A stretch of 64,000 bases of DNA, taken from assembly GCA_022844345.1 (NCBI GenBank), contig JALHLU010000004.1:1-64000 (forward strand), given 5' to 3'. Positions 28,625 through 36,425 of the stretch are shown piece after piece (position 1 is the first letter of the stretch; every line of letters begins with the position of its first letter). The stretch comes from Hyphomonadaceae bacterium (lineage in GTDB: Bacteria; Pseudomonadota; Alphaproteobacteria; Caulobacterales; Hyphomonadaceae). Below the pieces are notes generated by a model. It saw only the letters and a program-made list of their open reading frames with translations, made no database searches and was not told where the DNA came from. Made by a program: the position numbers and the translations under genes.

Positions 28625-29023
28625 GATCGTCTCTCCAGACCATTGCGGCGACCACATCACCGCCCGCTCTGCATGTCGAGGAGACAGGGCGCGAAGGCCC
28701 TCCATCAATTTTCATTGCCAGATTCTTAACCCCGCCGCGGGCGCCGTGAACGCGCACGCAAATCGCATATGCGGCAGCGCTTTCGCGCGATTGACGCCTT
28801 CAGCACGTGGACTGGAAAACGCGATTTCCGGCCTCGTTCCGGCTACCTCGTTAACGCGGAAAAGTCCTTGGGAGTGCTGATGAATCGGCAAAAACTGCCG
28901 GAAACCGGATGGAAACCATTGAGTGGGAAAAGTGGCCTCGTGGAGGTCGGCTAGCTGACCGCCGCGTGTAGATGCGCGTCGACCGAATGTCGACTTGAAG
29001 ACTACGACCAGGATGGTCCGGCC
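28625..29023. other. Intergenic region between divergent amidase and octad-repeat genes
   Basis: About 400 bases without a convincing gene. It must hold both divergent promoters. Visible are a small hairpin CGGCA/TGCCG (28887-28901), a direct repeat GGAAACC just after it, and an aggatgg ribosome-binding site ahead of 29024. I cannot name a -35/-10 pair with confidence. A 61-codon frame at 28769-28954 is judged spurious. Confidence 0.4.
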
Positions 29024-32000
29024 ATGTCGATTTCCTCGCTGTCAGTTGCGCAGATTCGCAATCTGTCCACGACGGCCATCCAGTCGCTGTCGAGCACGTC
29101 GATCCAGTCGCTGACGACCACGCAGGTCGCGGCCTTCACCACGACGGGCATAGACGCCATCACGGCCGGACAGTTCGAGGCCTTCTCCACCACACAGGTG
29201 AGGGCGCTCCAGACCACCCAGATCCCTTCCATCAACTCCAGCGTCGTGCTGACCTCGAACCAGCTGCTCGCGTTGACGGCGCAGCAGCTCGGCGTGCTTG
29301 CCACCGGGCAGGCCACGACCATGGAAACGACCGCGATCGCCGGCTTCAGCACCTCGCAGATCGCCGGCCTTTCATCCGCCAATCTTTCGGCGCTTGACGC
29401 CACACAGGCAGCCGCGCTCACCACCACGCAGGTTGCCTCGTTCTCGACCTCGCAGGTCCTGGGTCTCAACGCGACGGACATTTCCGAACTGTCCTCCACG
29501 CAGGTTTCGGCCTTCACGCGCACGCAGATGGTGCGTCTCGGCACCGAAGCGGTCGCAGCGCTTGATGCAACCCAGATCGGCGCGATTTCGACGTCGGTGA
29601 TCCAGGCCCTCAACAGCACGCAGATCGGCGCGCTCGAAGCGGCCGACATCGCCGAGTTCTCGACGACCCAACTGGCCGCCTTGTCGACAGCCCAGGTCCG
29701 CGCCCTCAATACCACGCATGTCGGCGGCCTGACGACAGAGCAGGTCTCCTCAATGACGACCACGCAGCTGCTTGCGATGTCGTCGACCAGTCTTTCGGCG
29801 CTCGACGCCAACCAGGCTGCAGCCCTCTCGACAACACAGCTTCGTTCGCTTTCGACCTCGCAGATCGCGGGTCTCGACGCCACGGACGTCGCCGAATTCA
29901 CCACCACGCAGATCGGCGCTCTGACCAACACGCAGGCGCAATCGCTGAGCTCGACGCAGCTTGGCGGCCTCGCCGATACACAGGTGCAGGCCTTCACGAC
30001 GACCCAGGTCGCCTCGCTCTCGACCACGCAGGTCCGCAACTTCACCTCCGAGATTTTCGCGGCGCTTGACGCGACCCAGATCGGCGCCTTGACCGCGACA
30101 CAGGTCGGCTCGATCTCCACCACCAACCTCAACGCGATCGACGCGACCAAGCTCAACTCGCTGAACACCACGCAGGTCCGCGGCCTGACCAACACGCAGA
30201 TCGCCGCGCTCGAAACGACGGCTATCTCCGGCATCGACGCGACGCGCTTTGGCTCGTTCACGGCCACGCAGGTCCGCGCCCTCACGACGACCCAGATCGG
30301 CGCGATGGAAGGCTCCGACGTCGCCAAGCTCGGCGCGGTGCAGATCGCAGCCCTGACCACCGCCCAGGTCGGCGCGCTGTCCTCGACCGGAATCAGCGAC
30401 CTTGCCGCGACGCAGATCCAGGCCTTCACCACGGGGCAGGTGCAGTCGATCTCGACCACAAACCTCAACGCCCTCAACGAAACCCAGCTTTCGGCGCTGA
30501 CCACGACGCAGGTCCTGCGCCTGTCGACCACGCAGGTTGGCGCGCTGAGCGAGACGAACATCGCCGCGATGGCGACCAGCCAGGCGGCGGCGCTTGCCAC
30601 GACCCAGCTCTCGCAGCTGTCGAGCGAGGCCCTGCGCGCCTTCTCGTCGACGCAGTTCGCGGCCCTGAGCGCCACGCAGGTCCGCGCGCTGACCACGACG
30701 CAGATCGAGAACCTCGAATCAAGCGACATCGCCGAGTTCACGACCACGCAGATCGCAGGCCTCGCCACGACTCAGGTGCGCGACCTCAGCGAGACCGCGA
30801 TCGCCGCCCTCGACACGACGCAGCTGGCCGCCCTGACGACCACGCAGATCAAGTCGCTGACGACCACAAATCTCGTTGCGCTGGCCGACACGCAGATCGC
30901 CGCGCTGACCACGACGCAGATCTCGAACCTCGCGACGACGCAGGTCGCGGCGCTGGAAACCACCAACGTCGCCGCCCTGACGTCGACCCAGGTCGGGGCC
31001 CTGACGCCCGCCCTGTTGACTGCGCTTGGCTCGACCAATTTCGCGGCGCTCGACGAAACACAGATCGGCGGCATCACAACGACACAGATGCGCGCCCTGT
31101 CGACGACCCAGGTCGCCAACATTGACGCCGACCAGATTGCGGCCTTCTCCACGACCCAGCTGACCCAGCTCAACGCGACGCAGATCCGCTCGCTGAGCAC
31201 GACCAACCTGTCCTCGCTCGACACGACCCAGATGGGCGCACTGACCGCCACGCAGATGGCCGCGCTGACGACGACGCAGATCGGCGGCCTGGTCTCCGGC
31301 GACATGGCCGAACTTACGACCACGCAACTCCAGGCGATGTTGACTGCGCAGGTTGGAGCCCTCGGCACAGAGGCCTTTGCCGCGCTCGACACCACACAGG
31401 TTCAGGCGCTGCGCACGACGCAGATCGCCGGCCTCACCACGACCCAGCTCAACGCGCTGGATTCGGCTGACATGACCGAATTCACGACCACCCAGGTCAG
31501 CGCGCTGAGCACGACGCAGGTCGCCGGTCTCAACGCCACCAACGCGCAGGCGATGACAACGACCCAGATCGCCAGCCTGACGACGACCCAGGTCAAGTCG
31601 CTCACCGCCACCAACATCGCAGCGTTTGATGCGACGCAGGTCGAGGCCCTGACAACCACGCAGATCAAGTCGCTGACCGCCACCCAGATCGGCGAACTTG
31701 CGGCGGAAGATGTCGCCGAGTTCAGCACCACGCAGATCGGCGCCCTCCAGAATACCCAGATCGTCGCGCTGACTTCGACGAACATGGCGAACCTCGCCGA
31801 GACCCAGATCGCTGCTTTCTCGGGTATCGGCGTCAAGACGCTCTCCGCCACGAACTTCGCCTCGCTGGCCGAAACCCAGCTGGCCGCGCTCACAACAACG
31901 CACATCGCTTCACTGACGACGTCGCAGCTGCAGGCGCTGAATGAGACCAAGTTCGCAGCCTTCACCGAAACGCAGATCGGCGCCCTGACCACGACACAGG

Positions 32001-34192
32001 TCGCGGTCCTGTCCGAGACCAACATCTCGGCTCTCGAGGCCACGCAGGTAGCGGCCCTCTCGACGGCCCAGCTGCAGCGCCTGACGACGACGCAGCTTAA
32101 TGGCCTCACCACGACCGACATGGGCGACTTCACGACCACGCAGGTCGCCGCGCTGTCGACCACGCAGGTTCGCGGTCTGTCGGACGCCAATATCGGCGCG
32201 CTTGCCGATACGCAGGTCGCTGCGCTGACGACGACACAGCTTGCTTCGGCCACGACGACCAACCTTGCTGCGCTGGATGCGACGCAGGTCGGCGTCCTCA
32301 CCACGACGCAGCTTGGCGCCGTCACAGGCACGCAGCTGGCCGGACTCTCGGCCGCTGACATGGCGGAATTCACGGCTGATCAGATCGGCGCGTTCACGAA
32401 CACGCAGGCCCGTTCGCTCACGGCAACGAATCTTGCCGATCTCGGCGACACACAGATCCAGGCCTTCTCGACGACGAGCCTGCGCGGCATCTCCGCCACG
32501 GCGTTCGGCTCTCTGTCGGAAACCCAGCTGGCGTCGCTGACGACGGATCAGGTCGCCTCGCTGGTCACGGCCCAACTGTCGGCGCTCAACTCCACGAAAT
32601 TCGGCGCCTTCACCGAAGCCCAGGTCGAAGCCCTCACGACGACGCAGGTTGCCGCGATCTCCAGCACCAACCTGACGGCGCTCGCTTCCACGCAGGTTGC
32701 CTCGCTCAACGAAACGCAGGTTGCCGCGCTCACGGCGACTCAGGTCGGCGCCCTGACGACTGACAATGTGGCGGCCCTCACCGAAACGCAGATCGGCGCG
32801 CTCACGACCACGCAGATCAAGGCGCTGTCCACCACGAACCTGTCGGCGCTCGAAGCCACGCAAGCCGCCGCTCTGACCACGACGCAGATCGCCAACCTCA
32901 CGACGACGCAGGCCGGCGCGCTTACGGGTACGGACATCACCGAGCTGACTGCCGAACAGATGGGCGCGTTCACGTCCACGCTGCTGGCGCGCCTCGGCAC
33001 GGAAGCGGTTGTTGCGCTGGACGCCAACCAGATCGCGGAATTCAACACCACGCAGATCGCGTCGCTCACCACGACGCAGCTGGCGGCGCTGGAAGCCGGC
33101 GACATCGCCGAGTTCAACGAAACGCAGATCGCCACCCTGACGGCAACGCAGGTCCGCGCGCTGACCACCACCGCCGTTGCGGCCCTCGCCGAGACGCAGA
33201 TGGCCGCGCTGACGACCGCGCAGGTCCAGGCCCTGTCCACAACTTCGCTGTCTGATCTCGAGGCCTCGCAGGTCGCGGCCATGACGACCACACAGGTCCG
33301 CGCCATCACGTCGGCGCAGATCGCGGCGCTGTCGACCACCGACGTCCAGGAGTTCACGACCGATCAGGTCGCAGCCTTCACGACGACACAGCTCAACGCC
33401 TTCTCCTCGACCAAGTTCGCGGCGATGACGGATGCGCAGATCGCGGCGATGACGCTCGGCCAGGTCCAGGCGATCTCGGCAACGAACCTCTCGGCGCTCG
33501 GCCTCACGCAGATCACCGCGTTGTCGACCGATCAGGTCGGTGCGCTCACGACGACGCAGCTCGCCGGCCTGTCGGTCACCAACCTGTCGGCCCTTGAAGC
33601 CTCGCAGATGGAAGCGCTTTCGACCACGCAGGTCCGCGCCTTCACCGCGACGCAGATCGCCGGACTGGAAGCGACCGACATCGCTGAGCTCAACAACACG
33701 CAGATCGAGGCGCTGACGACGACCCAGGTTGGCGCCTTGACCTCGACGAACATCGCTTCGCTCAGCGACTCGCAGGTCGCCGCGATGGTGGACACGCAAC
33801 TCGCGCGTCTGGCGACGTCGGTGGTCCACGCGCTCGACGCGACCCAGGTGGGCAGCCTGTCCACGACACAGGTCCAGGCCTTCACGACGACGCAGATTGG
33901 AGCCCTCGACGAAACCGATCTCGACGAGTTCACAGTGGGCCAGCTCGGCGCGCTCACGACGACCCAGGTCCGCGCGCTGACCACAACCGTCATCGGCGCC
34001 ATCTCTTCGCAGGCTCTCGGTGCGTTCGAAACGACCCAGATTGCTCAGCTGACCACGACGCAGATCGACAACCTCTCGACCACCAATCTCTCGGCGCTTT
34101 CGACGACGCAGCTGGGCGGCTTCACGGGCGGGCAGGTGGCGACGTTCAGTGACGAGCAGCTCGAGGCCTATCTGGTCGGAATGTCGGCCTAG
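29024..34192 (+). CDS. Giant octapeptide-repeat protein, 1722 residues, unknown function
   Basis: After MSISS the whole chain is tandem octads: eight units (residues 6-69), a six-residue break INSSVV (70-75), then about 205 units in unbroken register to residue 1715 and a short tail YLVGMSA. Consensus is L/F-S/T-T-T-Q/N-I/V/L-x-A/S. I see no Cys or Trp, only two Pro, and one Tyr near the C-terminus. Thr makes up roughly a quarter. No signal peptide or membrane segment is visible. Each S/T-x-x-Q could cap a short helix, or the array could form a beta-solenoid; sequence alone does not decide. Similar proteins are sometimes labelled haem utilisation or adhesin, without support here. The next gene encodes a GT41 glycosyltransferase. 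Confidence 0.85.
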   Translation: MSISSLSVAQIRNLSTTAIQSLSSTSIQSLTTTQVAAFTTTGIDAITAGQFEAFSTTQVRALQTTQIPSINSSVVLTSNQLLALTAQQLGVLATGQATTMETTAIAGFSTSQIAGLSSANLSALDATQAAALTTTQVASFSTSQVLGLNATDISELSSTQVSAFTRTQMVRLGTEAVAALDATQIGAISTSVIQALNSTQIGALEAADIAEFSTTQLAALSTAQVRALNTTHVGGLTTEQVSSMTTTQLLAMSSTSLSALDANQAAALSTTQLRSLSTSQIAGLDATDVAEFTTTQIGALTNTQAQSLSSTQLGGLADTQVQAFTTTQVASLSTTQVRNFTSEIFAALDATQIGALTATQVGSISTTNLNAIDATKLNSLNTTQVRGLTNTQIAALETTAISGIDATRFGSFTATQVRALTTTQIGAMEGSDVAKLGAVQIAALTTAQVGALSSTGISDLAATQIQAFTTGQVQSISTTNLNALNETQLSALTTTQVLRLSTTQVGALSETNIAAMATSQAAALATTQLSQLSSEALRAFSSTQFAALSATQVRALTTTQIENLESSDIAEFTTTQIAGLATTQVRDLSETAIAALDTTQLAALTTTQIKSLTTTNLVALADTQIAALTTTQISNLATTQVAALETTNVAALTSTQVGALTPALLTALGSTNFAALDETQIGGITTTQMRALSTTQVANIDADQIAAFSTTQLTQLNATQIRSLSTTNLSSLDTTQMGALTATQMAALTTTQIGGLVSGDMAELTTTQLQAMLTAQVGALGTEAFAALDTTQVQALRTTQIAGLTTTQLNALDSADMTEFTTTQVSALSTTQVAGLNATNAQAMTTTQIASLTTTQVKSLTATNIAAFDATQVEALTTTQIKSLTATQIGELAAEDVAEFSTTQIGALQNTQIVALTSTNMANLAETQIAAFSGIGVKTLSATNFASLAETQLAALTTTHIASLTTSQLQALNETKFAAFTETQIGALTTTQVAVLSETNISALEATQVAALSTAQLQRLTTTQLNGLTTTDMGDFTTTQVAALSTTQVRGLSDANIGALADTQVAALTTTQLASATTTNLAALDATQVGVLTTTQLGAVTGTQLAGLSAADMAEFTADQIGAFTNTQARSLTATNLADLGDTQIQAFSTTSLRGISATAFGSLSETQLASLTTDQVASLVTAQLSALNSTKFGAFTEAQVEALTTTQVAAISSTNLTALASTQVASLNETQVAALTATQVGALTTDNVAALTETQIGALTTTQIKALSTTNLSALEATQAAALTTTQIANLTTTQAGALTGTDITELTAEQMGAFTSTLLARLGTEAVVALDANQIAEFNTTQIASLTTTQLAALEAGDIAEFNETQIATLTATQVRALTTTAVAALAETQMAALTTAQVQALSTTSLSDLEASQVAAMTTTQVRAITSAQIAALSTTDVQEFTTDQVAAFTTTQLNAFSSTKFAAMTDAQIAAMTLGQVQAISATNLSALGLTQITALSTDQVGALTTTQLAGLSVTNLSALEASQMEALSTTQVRAFTATQIAGLEATDIAELNNTQIEALTTTQVGALTSTNIASLSDSQVAAMVDTQLARLATSVVHALDATQVGSLSTTQVQAFTTTQIGALDETDLDEFTVGQLGALTTTQVRALTTTVIGAISSQALGAFETTQIAQLTTTQIDNLSTTNLSALSTTQLGGFTGGQVATFSDEQLEAYLVGMSA
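29039..34168 (+). repeat. 213 tandem 24-bp units encoding octapeptides, with higher-order repeat
   Basis: Units are diverged at DNA level but keep the 24-base phase. A variant octad with Asp at position 5 followed by xE(F/L) recurs with its Asp codon at 29477, 29645, 29885, 30317, 30725, 31301, 31469, 31709, 32117, 32357, 32933, 33101, 33341, 33677 and 33917; every interval is an exact multiple of 24. A second variant (L-G-T-E-A-V/F or a relative) lies 108 bases before an Asp marker at five places (29537, 30617, 31361, 32993, 33809). The block from 31301 recurs at 32933, exactly 1632 bases (68 units) later. Confidence 0.9.
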
Positions 34193-34203
34193 GGGCGGAG
34201 TTC

Positions 34204-34226
34204 GGCGCGCCCGGGCAGGGCGCGCC
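34204..34226 (+). terminator. Probable terminator after the octad-repeat gene
   Basis: Two copies of GGCGCGCC (34204-34211 and 34219-34226) pair around a 7-base loop, followed by ataaggatttt. The T-run is short, so termination may be partial and allow readthrough into the glycosyltransferase gene. Confidence 0.5.
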
Positions 34227-34373
34227 ATAAGGATTTTGGCCGGTTCCGGGGGTGTCTTAACGGCGCCCTTGGGCCGGTTTACCTTTTATTGAGCAACGAA
34301 ATCCAATCCTGTCGCGCCCGCGTTCCACCCGGCACCCGCCGCGGCTCGGCGCGCGCTGATCAGGTGGACGTTG

Positions 34374-36425
34374 ATGTCACAGCCCGCTTTTCTCGCAGCG
34401 ATCCAGAAGATCACAGCTGGCGGCCTTGCACTGGAAGAACTGCTCGCCGCCGCAGGGGGGTTGGAGCCAGACCAGGCGCGCCAGCTCTATCAGGTCTGGA
34501 TATCCTTCAACAAAACCCATCCGCTGCTGTTCATCGCGCACTTCAACTGCTCCACGCTGCTGCAGCAGGTCGGCGATGAAGCGGGCGGCGAGGCCGAGCT
34601 TCGCGCCGCGCTGGAGCTGAAGGCGGATTTCGCGCCCGCAGCCATCAACCTGGGCTCCAGCCTCGAGCGGCAGGGCAAGGCAGGCGAAGCCGTCGCCCAA
34701 TGGCGCGGCGCGCTCGACCTGATGTCAGCGGTCTCCGCCGACAGCATCAACTACAAGATCACGCTTCTGAAGCAGATCAGCCGCGTGCTGTCCGACAGCC
34801 ACCAGCTCGCCGCAGCCGAAGTGGCGCTGACGCAGTGCCTCGAGCTTGCGCCGGATGCGCGCGACGTGGCCGAGCAGTATGTCGCGGCGCGTCTGTCGCA
34901 GTGCAAGTGGCCGATGACACCCGAGGGCGGAAAGTTCTCGCGCCGCAATCTGGTCTCGCGCCTTCATCCGCTGTCGGTGTGCGCCTATACCGATGATCCG
35001 CTGCTGCAGCTGGCCGCCTCGGACAAATACGTGCGCACCATGGTTCCGATCGAGGATCGCACCACGCGGTTCGATCGCCGCGCAGCGCCCATCGAGACCA
35101 ACCGCCGGCTGCGCATCGGCTATGTCTCATCCGATCTGCGCCACCATGCGGTTGGCTATCTGATGGTCAACTTCTTCGAGGAGCACGACCGCAACGATTT
35201 CGAGGTCTTTGCCTATTACACGGGCATCAAGTCCGAGGATCCGATTCAGGCGCGCATCAAGGCGTCCTGCGATCACTGGCGCGACATTCGCAACATCACG
35301 GACGATGAGGCGGCCGCGAAGATCGCGGAAGACGGCATCGACATCCTCATCGATGTGAACGGTCACACGCGGGATGCCCGCATCGGCGTATTCGCGCGGC
35401 GGCCTGCGCCGATCCAGGTCAACTGGCTCGGCTATCCCGGCACGATGGGTTCGTCCTTCCACCACTACATCGTGGCCGACGATTTCACGATTCCGGACTA
35501 CGCGGAGAACTGGTATTCGGAGAAGGTGGTGCGCCTGCCGTGCTACCAGCCGAATGATCGCAAGCGCATCGTCGATGAGACCGTGCCGGCACGCGCCGAC
35601 TTCGGCCTGCCGGACAACGCATTCGTATTCTGCTGCTTCAACGCCAGCCACAAATTCACGCGCTTCACCTTCGAACGCTGGATGGAAATCCTGCGCGGTA
35701 CAGAGAACAGCGTGCTCTGGCTGCTGGACTATTCGCCGGAAACGAACCAGCGCCTGCGCGAACAGGCCGAGGCGCGCGGCGTTGCTGGCGACCGTCTCGT
35801 CTTTGCGCCCAAACTGCCCAACCCGCGCCACCTCGCGCGTTATCCGTTGGCTGATCTGTTCCTCGACACGGTGCCCTATGGCGCCCACACGACGGCGTCG
35901 GATGCGCTGTGGATGGGCGTGCCGGTGCTCACCTGGTCTGGCCGGTGTTTCGCCAGCCGCGTCTGCGGCAGCCTGCTCACATCCGCCGGCCTGCCGGACC
36001 TCGTCTGCGAAACGCCGGAGGACTTTGTCTCGCGCGCCATCCATCTAAGCGGGGCGGCAGGCAAGGGCGAGCTGCAGGAGATCAAGGCGCGCCTCGCCGC
36101 CAATCGCGACGCCTGCACGCTGTTCGACGTGGCGAAACTCTCGCGCAGCATGGAAGAGCTCTATCGCCAGATGCGCAGCGACTACATCGCCGGCAATCTC
36201 CCGCGTCCGAACCTCGCCAATCTCGACAGCTATTTCGACATTGGCGTGGCGCAGGACCACGAGGCCCGCGAGATGGCCGCGCTGACCGACTATGAGGGCT
36301 TCTACCGCGCGCAGCTGGCGCGCCGGCACTATCACCACCCGATGCCGGCCGACGGCCGCCTGTGGACAGGCGAGGAAGAGGCCGACGCGAAGCCGGTCAA
36401 GCGGACGCGCCCGAAGGCGGCTTGA
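34374..36425 (+). CDS. GT41 family glycosyltransferase (OGT/SPINDLY-type) with N-terminal TPRs
   Basis: Predicted to move a sugar from a nucleotide sugar to Ser/Thr (or other) side chains of proteins in the cytoplasm. 683 residues. TPR-like helices fill about residues 40-200 (FAPAAINLGSSLERQGKAGE). The catalytic region has RIGYVSSDLRHH (from residue 247), PIQVNWLGYPGTMGSS, CCFNASHKF with Lys427 at the place of the UDP-binding Lys of human OGT, and LDTVPYGAHTTASDALWMG (from 497). A basic tail ends it. ATG 34374 follows aggtgg. It lies 181 bases after the octad-repeat gene on the same strand, so that protein is the natural substrate candidate. Confidence 0.88.
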   Translation: MSQPAFLAAIQKITAGGLALEELLAAAGGLEPDQARQLYQVWISFNKTHPLLFIAHFNCSTLLQQVGDEAGGEAELRAALELKADFAPAAINLGSSLERQGKAGEAVAQWRGALDLMSAVSADSINYKITLLKQISRVLSDSHQLAAAEVALTQCLELAPDARDVAEQYVAARLSQCKWPMTPEGGKFSRRNLVSRLHPLSVCAYTDDPLLQLAASDKYVRTMVPIEDRTTRFDRRAAPIETNRRLRIGYVSSDLRHHAVGYLMVNFFEEHDRNDFEVFAYYTGIKSEDPIQARIKASCDHWRDIRNITDDEAAAKIAEDGIDILIDVNGHTRDARIGVFARRPAPIQVNWLGYPGTMGSSFHHYIVADDFTIPDYAENWYSEKVVRLPCYQPNDRKRIVDETVPARADFGLPDNAFVFCCFNASHKFTRFTFERWMEILRGTENSVLWLLDYSPETNQRLREQAEARGVAGDRLVFAPKLPNPRHLARYPLADLFLDTVPYGAHTTASDALWMGVPVLTWSGRCFASRVCGSLLTSAGLPDLVCETPEDFVSRAIHLSGAAGKGELQEIKARLAANRDACTLFDVAKLSRSMEELYRQMRSDYIAGNLPRPNLANLDSYFDIGVAQDHEAREMAALTDYEGFYRAQLARRHYHHPMPADGRLWTGEEEADAKPVKRTRPKAA

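Follow-up and report, generated by a model that had tools for sequence, protein, structure and literature searches.

A long octapeptide-repeat protein of a Hyphomonadaceae bacterium with a predicted helical screw and an adjoining OGT-like glycosyltransferase

The octad gene and its register

The analysis concerns a stretch of 64,000 nucleotides from a Hyphomonadaceae bacterium (assembly GCA_022844345.1, contig JALHLU010000004.1, positions 1-64,000, forward strand; “the window” in the following) and, within it, a plus-strand gene at 29024..34192 that is open throughout and encodes 1722 residues arranged in repeats of eight, the octads. By computation the encoded octad protein matches Pfam PF20080 (ALTTAQ_rpt) with 745.1 bits (curated cut-off 26.4), an E-value of 1.4e-230 and 71 matching stretches. 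It starts with an N-terminal block of eight octads (residues 6-69, 29039..29230) that is kept in relatives, continues after a six-residue break of the register (residues 70-75, 29231..29248) with an array of 205 octads in a single register and with a screw period of 3.425 octads (residues 76-1715, 29249..34168), and ends in a C-terminal cap, predicted to be a helix of 12 residues (residues 1710-1721, 34151..34186). In the closest relatives and in genus g17 the cap carries the motif D/E-x-Q-L/I-E-A-Y-L.

The counted 8 + 205 octads agree with the 213 claimed by an earlier reading of the letters by a model (the sequence-only reading), and the break lies where this reading had placed it, with all 205 octads after it in one frame. 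A comparable break is visible in the N-termini of relatives from the order Caulobacterales and of locus L083 (loci are given L numbers and genomes G numbers), and it is therefore not noise. The consensus L-S/T-T-T-Q-I/V-x-A proposed at the same time is correct as an average; the exact pattern L[ST]TTQ[IV]xA occurs in just 8 of the 205 octads. Position 1 of the array is Leu, Phe, Ile, Met, Val or Ala in 205/205 octads, and the same holds for position 6. If both positions have to be hydrophobic and Ala is barred at position 1, 99.5% of the octads pass in the true frame, whereas 500 shuffles never exceed 19.6%, even in their best frame. Gln is found at position 5 in 139/205 octads, and 200 distinct octad sequences occur among the 205. 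The whole protein contains 354 Thr and 150 Ser, two Pro, and neither Cys nor Trp. As the DNA units coding for the octads have diverged (mean pairwise identity 53%), the array is not the result of a recent DNA expansion. Tandem Repeats Finder returned short pieces only from the gene.

The statement of the sequence-only reading that no characterised family has this unit did not hold: the repeat is that of PF20080, and a solved chain of 120 residues, HeliScrew4 (PDB 9zem), has the same octad. The alignment with HeliScrew4 spans 111 residues without gaps (E 9.2e-16), and the likeness to the octad protein is known from the name of the chain and this alignment. HeliScrew4 differs by its length (~15 octads compared to 213) and at positions 3-4, which are Thr in the window protein but mainly Pro-Glu or Pro-Asp in the solved chain; judged from name and regularity it appears to be engineered. 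The Pfam model of PF20080 covers 38 positions, approximately five octads, and carries no information on the 3.43-octad periodicity, on the fixed length or on the partners reported below. We found no function description for PF20080 or ALTTAQ_rpt, a full-text open-access search for name and accession gave no paper, and literature searches for the ALTTAQ repeat, HeliScrew and the octad motif listed nothing apparently relevant. In NCBIfam nothing came near any cut-off. An assignment to the leucine-rich repeats (LRR) was rejected: LRR_EndoS of Pfam scored 46.7 bits, over its cut-off, next to weak LRR matches in the PDB, but the structure models are not LRR, and these matches probably reflect leucine spacing.

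The distribution of PF20080 is patchy. Among the sampled genomes it occurs in 11/150 of the order, 6/385 of the class and 28/398 of the phylum, with 10, 6 and 25 over the cut-off (the weak match in the order, by E-value, is G021). A tblastn search with the octad protein matched 57 of 72,556 plasmid records; 18 of these 57 regions, five of them unannotated, were read. The same search gave no match in the phage records, and as the 17 pattern matches in viral contigs include none that was confirmed, a phage or viral origin was rejected. One weak plasmid match of 24% identity (Spiroplasma endosymbiont, CP117533.1, H72) is either chance similarity or a distant case. The comparisons below use a separate set of 57 octad loci, which includes the window protein, a duplicate (L117 = L080), near copies (L128/L118; L036-L038), pairs of loci that are the two ends of one gene (L099/L100, L113/L114), and truncated contigs. 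L052, L079, L102 and L105 did not pass the octad open reading frame (ORF) filter and stand outside this set. The GT41 profile for scanning it was built from 7 sequences.

Upstream of the ATG, AGGA at 29010..29013 (plus strand) is a possible ribosome-binding site within a short inverted repeat (GACCAGGATGGTC, 29006-29018). Codons resembling those 5' of the gene start (D-Q-D-G) are also present in L037, L038, L048 and L051. Minus-strand ORFs of up to 772 residues lie opposite the octad gene (29002-34228) and are probably a by-product of its repetitive GC-rich codons.

Helical prediction, screw period and constraint

The structure prediction that the sequence-only reading had called for was run with AlphaFold2 and four orthologues on two long segments, residues 1-600 and 1096-1722, which together make up 1227 of the 1722 residues. 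The mean predicted local distance difference test (pLDDT) was 89.4 for the first and 93.2 for the second segment, with predicted template modelling scores of 0.69 and 0.71, and 550 of the 627 residues of the second segment reached a pLDDT of at least 90. Both models contain one helix of approximately 4-6 residues in nearly every octad, with few helices fused or shorter, as was anticipated by the suggestion of short stacked helices; the last helix has 12 residues. Neither model contains a beta strand. According to the models the octad protein is a helical solenoid and not a beta-solenoid, which had been the alternative and is not supported by the strand-free models of these 1227 residues. The suggested S/T-x-x-Q capping box fits as well. 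In the octad of residues 30-37 the helix is predicted at residues 32-37, which would make position 2 (Ser/Thr) the N-cap and position 5 (Gln) N3.

A Foldseek search with the models found no close solved fold. By E-value 8fni_9 came first; the highest probability (0.99-1.00) was given to mesothelin chains, with TM-scores of 0.25-0.39 by target length, and HeliScrew4 was not among the 50 listed matches of either model. Mesothelin has been described as a right-handed solenoid with 24 short helices, roughly three of which complete a circle (PMC10035497), and its family is treated in an earlier prediction paper (PMC2628672). Going by Foldseek and this description the likeness may be that of a solenoid of short helices. 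Among 27 PDB sequence matches up to E 1 there was no mesothelin chain, and mesothelin has disulfides whereas the octad protein has no Cys.

The array has a second, longer period. Identity between octads is maximal at lags of 3-4, 7, 10, 14, 17, 21, 24, 27-28, 31, 34, 38, 41 and onward (period ~3.42), and the top peak of the Fourier spectrum lies at 3.425 octads with 6.44 times the mean power, compared with at most 2.66 times in 100 shuffles of the octad order. Recurrence every ~3.43 octads equals 24/7, leading to ~27.4 residues per turn and to seven turns in 24 octads. The phase of this screw is coherent across all 205 octads. Since the duplication test found no internal duplication in the window protein, the peak does not stem from a recent duplication. 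In 41 of the 57 octad proteins the top peak falls within 3.38-3.48, with 37 of them above every one of the 100 shuffles. The other 16 comprise L108 and L122 at the edge of the band, seven with peaks near 2.4 or 8.5, interpreted here as second and third harmonics of 3.39-3.45 after folding, and seven without fit to the screw period.

Charged residues follow the screw. In the window protein Asp at position 5 (R 0.86) and Glu at position 8 (R 0.82) share one screw phase, Arg at position 7 (R 0.67) lies on the opposite side, and acidic and basic residues are 165 degrees apart. A separation of 151-180 degrees is found in 10 of 17 proteins (window, L037, L038, L040, L042, L045, L049, L080, L083, L084), where no more than 1 of 500 permutations reached the acid value, and likewise for the base value. 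Opposite stripes were rejected as a general rule, as they fail or are uncertain in 7/17.

The sequence-only reading had argued for selection on a regular solenoid, and the comparison with orthologues is in agreement with this. L036, L037 and L038 are 90, 70 and 67% identical to the window protein over 1721-1722 aligned residues and show no internal gap. The ratio of nonsynonymous to synonymous substitution rates (dN/dS) is 0.098, 0.271 and 0.281, respectively, at a synonymous divergence of 0.57-0.85, and position 5 of the octad is most constrained (0.012, 0.026 and 0.057). Six proteins of genus g17 (~2104 residues; L041-L045, L048; 60-75% identical) have internal gaps that never span more than two residues. 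The L051 gene is interrupted by a frame break; its product, aligned in part, shares 56-59% identity with them, and 2 of its 6 comparisons contain a 32-residue gap. The pair L104/L107 (2942 residues, 83%) aligns without gaps, and L078/L081 (49%) with a single 2-residue gap at the start. The lengths of L080/L084, L103/L104 and L103/L106 differ by large gaps. Taken together, several clades keep the protein at constant length, and in others it varies.

Internal duplications were found in 12 of the 24 octad proteins tested, and in other species they are mostly near whole numbers of turns. Duplications of 192 residues (7.00 turns) occur in L039, L080, L082, L084, L110 and L115, those of 248 and 496 residues (9.04 and 18.08 turns) in L049 and L083, and those of 987, 495 and 492 residues (35.98, 18.05 and 17.94 turns) in L047. 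Top lags near whole turns are listed for L039, L042, L047, L049, L080, L082, L083, L084 and L110; owing to its own period of 3.444, L083 departs from whole turns as the lags grow. As a general rule the whole-turn relation was rejected: it is broken by a lag of 32 in L114, L115 and L116 and by lags of 64, 96 and 128 (L114), 128 (L116) and 160 (L115), and the gaps between L103 and L104 (88, 64, 232) and between L103 and L106 are not whole turns singly. Family f198 (L113-L116; genomes G583, G618, G629) possesses several octad genes with open frames of up to 6436 residues, some built of 4-octad duplications that are off this relation. Octad genes seemingly split into several frames (L119:5795-13209 from Pseudomonas asturiensis; L051:8688-15036 from G112) reflect either sequencing error or decay.

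The adjoining glycosyltransferase and the secretion genes of relatives

The octad gene is followed on the same strand by a gap of 178 nucleotides (34193..34370) and a gene at 34371..36425 (second ATG at 34374) for a TPR + GT41 (OGT-like) glycosyltransferase of 684 residues. No terminator-like site was reported in the gap; GGCGCGCC occurs in it at 34204-34211 and 34219-34226, 7 bases apart, a pair (34204-34226) that lacks a strong T-run and may form a hairpin. The TPR-like region (residues 88-161, 34632..34853) matches TPR_12 with E 8.6e-7 and 29.5 bits, just under the cut-off of 30.1, and other TPR models more weakly. The catalytic domain matches PF13844 with 276.5 bits (cut-off 25). It aligns with human OGT at E 2.3e-80 and with XcOGT (XCC0866) at E 6.1e-79, the latter alignment running from residue 35 on. 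One His and one Lys, which may correspond to the catalytic residues of the OGT family, align at matching stretches. Homology to human OGT and XcOGT thus concerns the catalytic domain. OGT acts on many target proteins; the window enzyme differs from it by few TPRs and one apparent partner protein.

A further analogue may be FlmG of Caulobacter. Its N-terminal TPR binds flagellin, and its C-terminal transferase part is needed for cytoplasmic glycosylation (PMC7591256). Going by architecture and gene pairing here, the likeness would lie in a TPR or TPR-like region joined to a glycosyltransferase domain and, presumably, in the O-glycosylation of own substrates, which are flagellins for FlmG. By analogy the TPR-like region of the window enzyme is presumed to bind its substrate.

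The partnership of both genes extends beyond the window. The enzyme is the only GT41 of its genome. Among the 150 sampled genomes of the order it has matches of at least 771 bits in 10, the same 10 that carry PF20080 over the cut-off. Outside these ten, scores reach at most 374 bits, and G096, G131 and G146 (305-373 bits) have no PF20080 match. A GT41 gene lies directly downstream of the octad gene, on the same strand and after 72-178 nucleotides, at 17 loci (close relatives included), and within the fragment at 32 of 57 loci; at five plasmid loci an adjoining TPR or transferase gene was confirmed as GT41. Genomes G042 and G116 contain a second octad gene (L046, L050) without an adjoining GT41 in the fragment. 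Caulobacter vibrioides, used as a control, possesses both PF20080 and GT41.

A further hint arises from the composition of the octads. When the Ser/Thr fractions of positions 3 and 4 are compared and the larger one is taken for each lineage, GT41-linked lineages lie above unlinked ones (P = 0.0009, 19 vs 18), both groups chosen by hand. The “unlinked” L103, L106 and L107 are secretion-linked, and GT41 genes lie ~1 kb (L103) and ~5 kb (L106) past the stretch examined; if these three and second copies are dropped, P is 0.0001 (19 vs 11). The lowest fractions (0.25 and 0.24) belong to L101 from G870, the sole genome of 11 without a GT41 match.

HlyB-like ATP-binding cassette (ABC) and HlyD genes are neighbours of the octad gene in L040, L080, L084, L103, L105 (beside L104), L106 and L107; among the 57 loci, ABC is present in 10 and HlyD in 13. 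The HlyD of L080 scores above its own cut-off. By annotation ABC and HlyD genes stand beside the octad gene in Cereibacter sphaeroides and Pseudoroseomonas, and a TolC/HlyD/ABC set does so in two Pseudomonas plasmids. On plasmid pA of Cereibacter sphaeroides 2.4.1 octad, OGT-like, ABC and HlyD genes are side by side, with the octad gene filed as “ICE nucleation protein”. The plasmid loci of Thioclava, Shinella, Roseateles and Polaromonas have neither GT41 nor secretion genes. RTX glycine-rich nonapeptides (HemolysinCabind) gave no match in the octad protein at E up to 1. At L079:7568-10990 PF20080 repeats stand beside VCBS/cadherin-like repeats, near a large RTX-bearing ORF.

Proposed explanation and its rivals

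We propose, with a probability of about 0.6, that the octad protein is a glycosylated alpha-screw rod of fixed length that is exported at least in relatives. Each octad would contribute one short helix to a long rigid alpha-solenoid, with Ser/Thr of position 2 as N-cap, Gln at N3 and the hydrophobic residues of positions 1 and 6 filling the core. Successive helices would turn by ~105 degrees, which gives 3.43 helices per turn and ~60 turns; the rod would probably be capped by the N-terminal block, including its break, and by the C-terminal helix. Helical solenoids extend by ~1 nm per turn, so that the rod would be ~60 nm long. Ser and Thr of positions 3 and 4 could be surface O-glycosylation sites for the adjoining TPR-GT41, which probably recognises the octad chain in the cytoplasm, as FlmG does with flagellin. 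Export would probably follow, in several relatives via the linked type I secretion system, and a glycosylated rod of fixed length at the cell surface would be the end product. Export is supported for the relatives with linked transporters; in this organism we infer it, as we do the glycosylation and the surface location. The opposite acidic and basic faces may, more speculatively, allow side-by-side packing of rods.

Several observations weigh against this explanation. The twist of ~105 degrees as a physical angle is read from sequence. The strict period test is failed by 20 of the 57 octad proteins, opposite charge stripes are absent from L082, L103, L106, L107 and L110, and they are uncertain in L078 (169 degrees) and L039 (131), where the bases are not significant. 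The co-occurrence with GT41 is confined to three families and carries no phylogenetic correction, so that the ten genomes are not ten independent cases. At 25 of 57 loci, some of them truncated, no GT41 is seen in the fragment; glycosylation is thus not essential to the fold. The Ser/Thr mean of positions 3 and 4 gives P = 0.05 only, Ser/Thr at position 2 is lower in GT41-linked lineages (P = 0.035), and L078 is low in Ser/Thr despite several GT41 genes elsewhere in its genome, G189. Three ABC proteins tested are best matched by type_I_sec_HlyB, below its curated cut-off. The surroundings of the octad gene in the window yielded no type I secretion gene, the L040-linked transporter has no match in this genome at E <= 1e-100, and the three HlyD-type adaptors over the cut-off are on other contigs. 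A secretion system linked to the octad gene was thus looked for and not found in this genome.

The absence of a close transporter from this genome also suits a rod that stays in the cell and works in the cytoplasm as a scaffold or for measuring. TPR-GT41 would then glycosylate it or only bind it, and the secretion genes of relatives would serve other substrates or a derived use. The octads begin right at the N-terminus, no Sec signal is obvious by eye, and no secretion gene was found in the same-order fragments. We regard this as unlikely, though worth keeping in mind, since one HlyB-like kind flanks octad genes in separate lineages (L040, L080/L084, L103, L105-L107, Cereibacter, Pseudoroseomonas) and the TolC/HlyD/ABC set recurs in the two Pseudomonas plasmids. 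Rather improbable is a GT41 that leaves the octads unmodified and has another role, e.g. that of a chaperone-like TPR protein holding the chain before folding or export. Octad proteins without a nearby GT41 do exist, and acceptor residues are possibly hidden in the folded helices; against this the catalytic domain aligns over its length with OGT and XcOGT, and the Ser/Thr content of positions 3/4 goes along with GT41 being present.

Two further readings have very little left in their favor. Relatives in plasmid records are named “ICE nucleation protein”, “heme utilization protein” or “large exoprotein involved in heme utilization or adhesion”; L128:9779-14464 is among the loci with record names of this sort. 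Ice nucleation proteins are also built of octapeptide repeats, in a beta-solenoid fold. Such a function is highly improbable for the octad protein, since both models are all-helical, Pfam shows neither an ice-nucleation repeat nor a heme family in it, and a scan of 30 window ORFs gave no match to families whose names refer to heme uptake. Both functions are present as record names only, and these names look unfounded. Least credible of all, and next to excluded by dN/dS of 0.10-0.28, by the lack of internal gaps at 67-90% identity and by a coherent screw phase without internal duplication in the window protein, is a repeat expanded by slippage under little constraint with regularity as a by-product, in spite of recent internal duplications in L080, L083 and L114 and the length differences of L080/L084, L103/L104 and L103/L106.

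Returning to the exported, glycosylated rod, one may tentatively go further, to a possibility we hold doubtful as a whole: a bacterial surface structure not described before, in which exported, TPR-GT41-glycosylated alpha-screw rods of fixed length pack via their charged faces into a lattice or bundle, and in which length evolves mainly by whole screw repeats. Such repeats would be 24 octads for 7 turns, 31 for 9 and 62 for 18, and with length changes of this kind the charged faces would stay aligned.

The repeat family itself was already known from Pfam. New are the 3.43-octad period, the striped arrangement of charges, the constant length within several clades, the partnership with GT41 and the link to type I secretion in relatives. 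For PF20080 this means a testable structure, with one helix per octad and 3.43 helices per turn, as well as an enzyme as partner and a route by which export probably proceeds. The octad protein would represent a natural, near-perfect, non-integer protein screw, with a length that in several clades is kept to the residue over wide divergence. For the bacterial OGT family it offers an unusually clear candidate pair of enzyme and substrate, and as octad, OGT-like, ABC and HlyD genes occur together in Cereibacter sphaeroides 2.4.1, the idea is open to direct testing.

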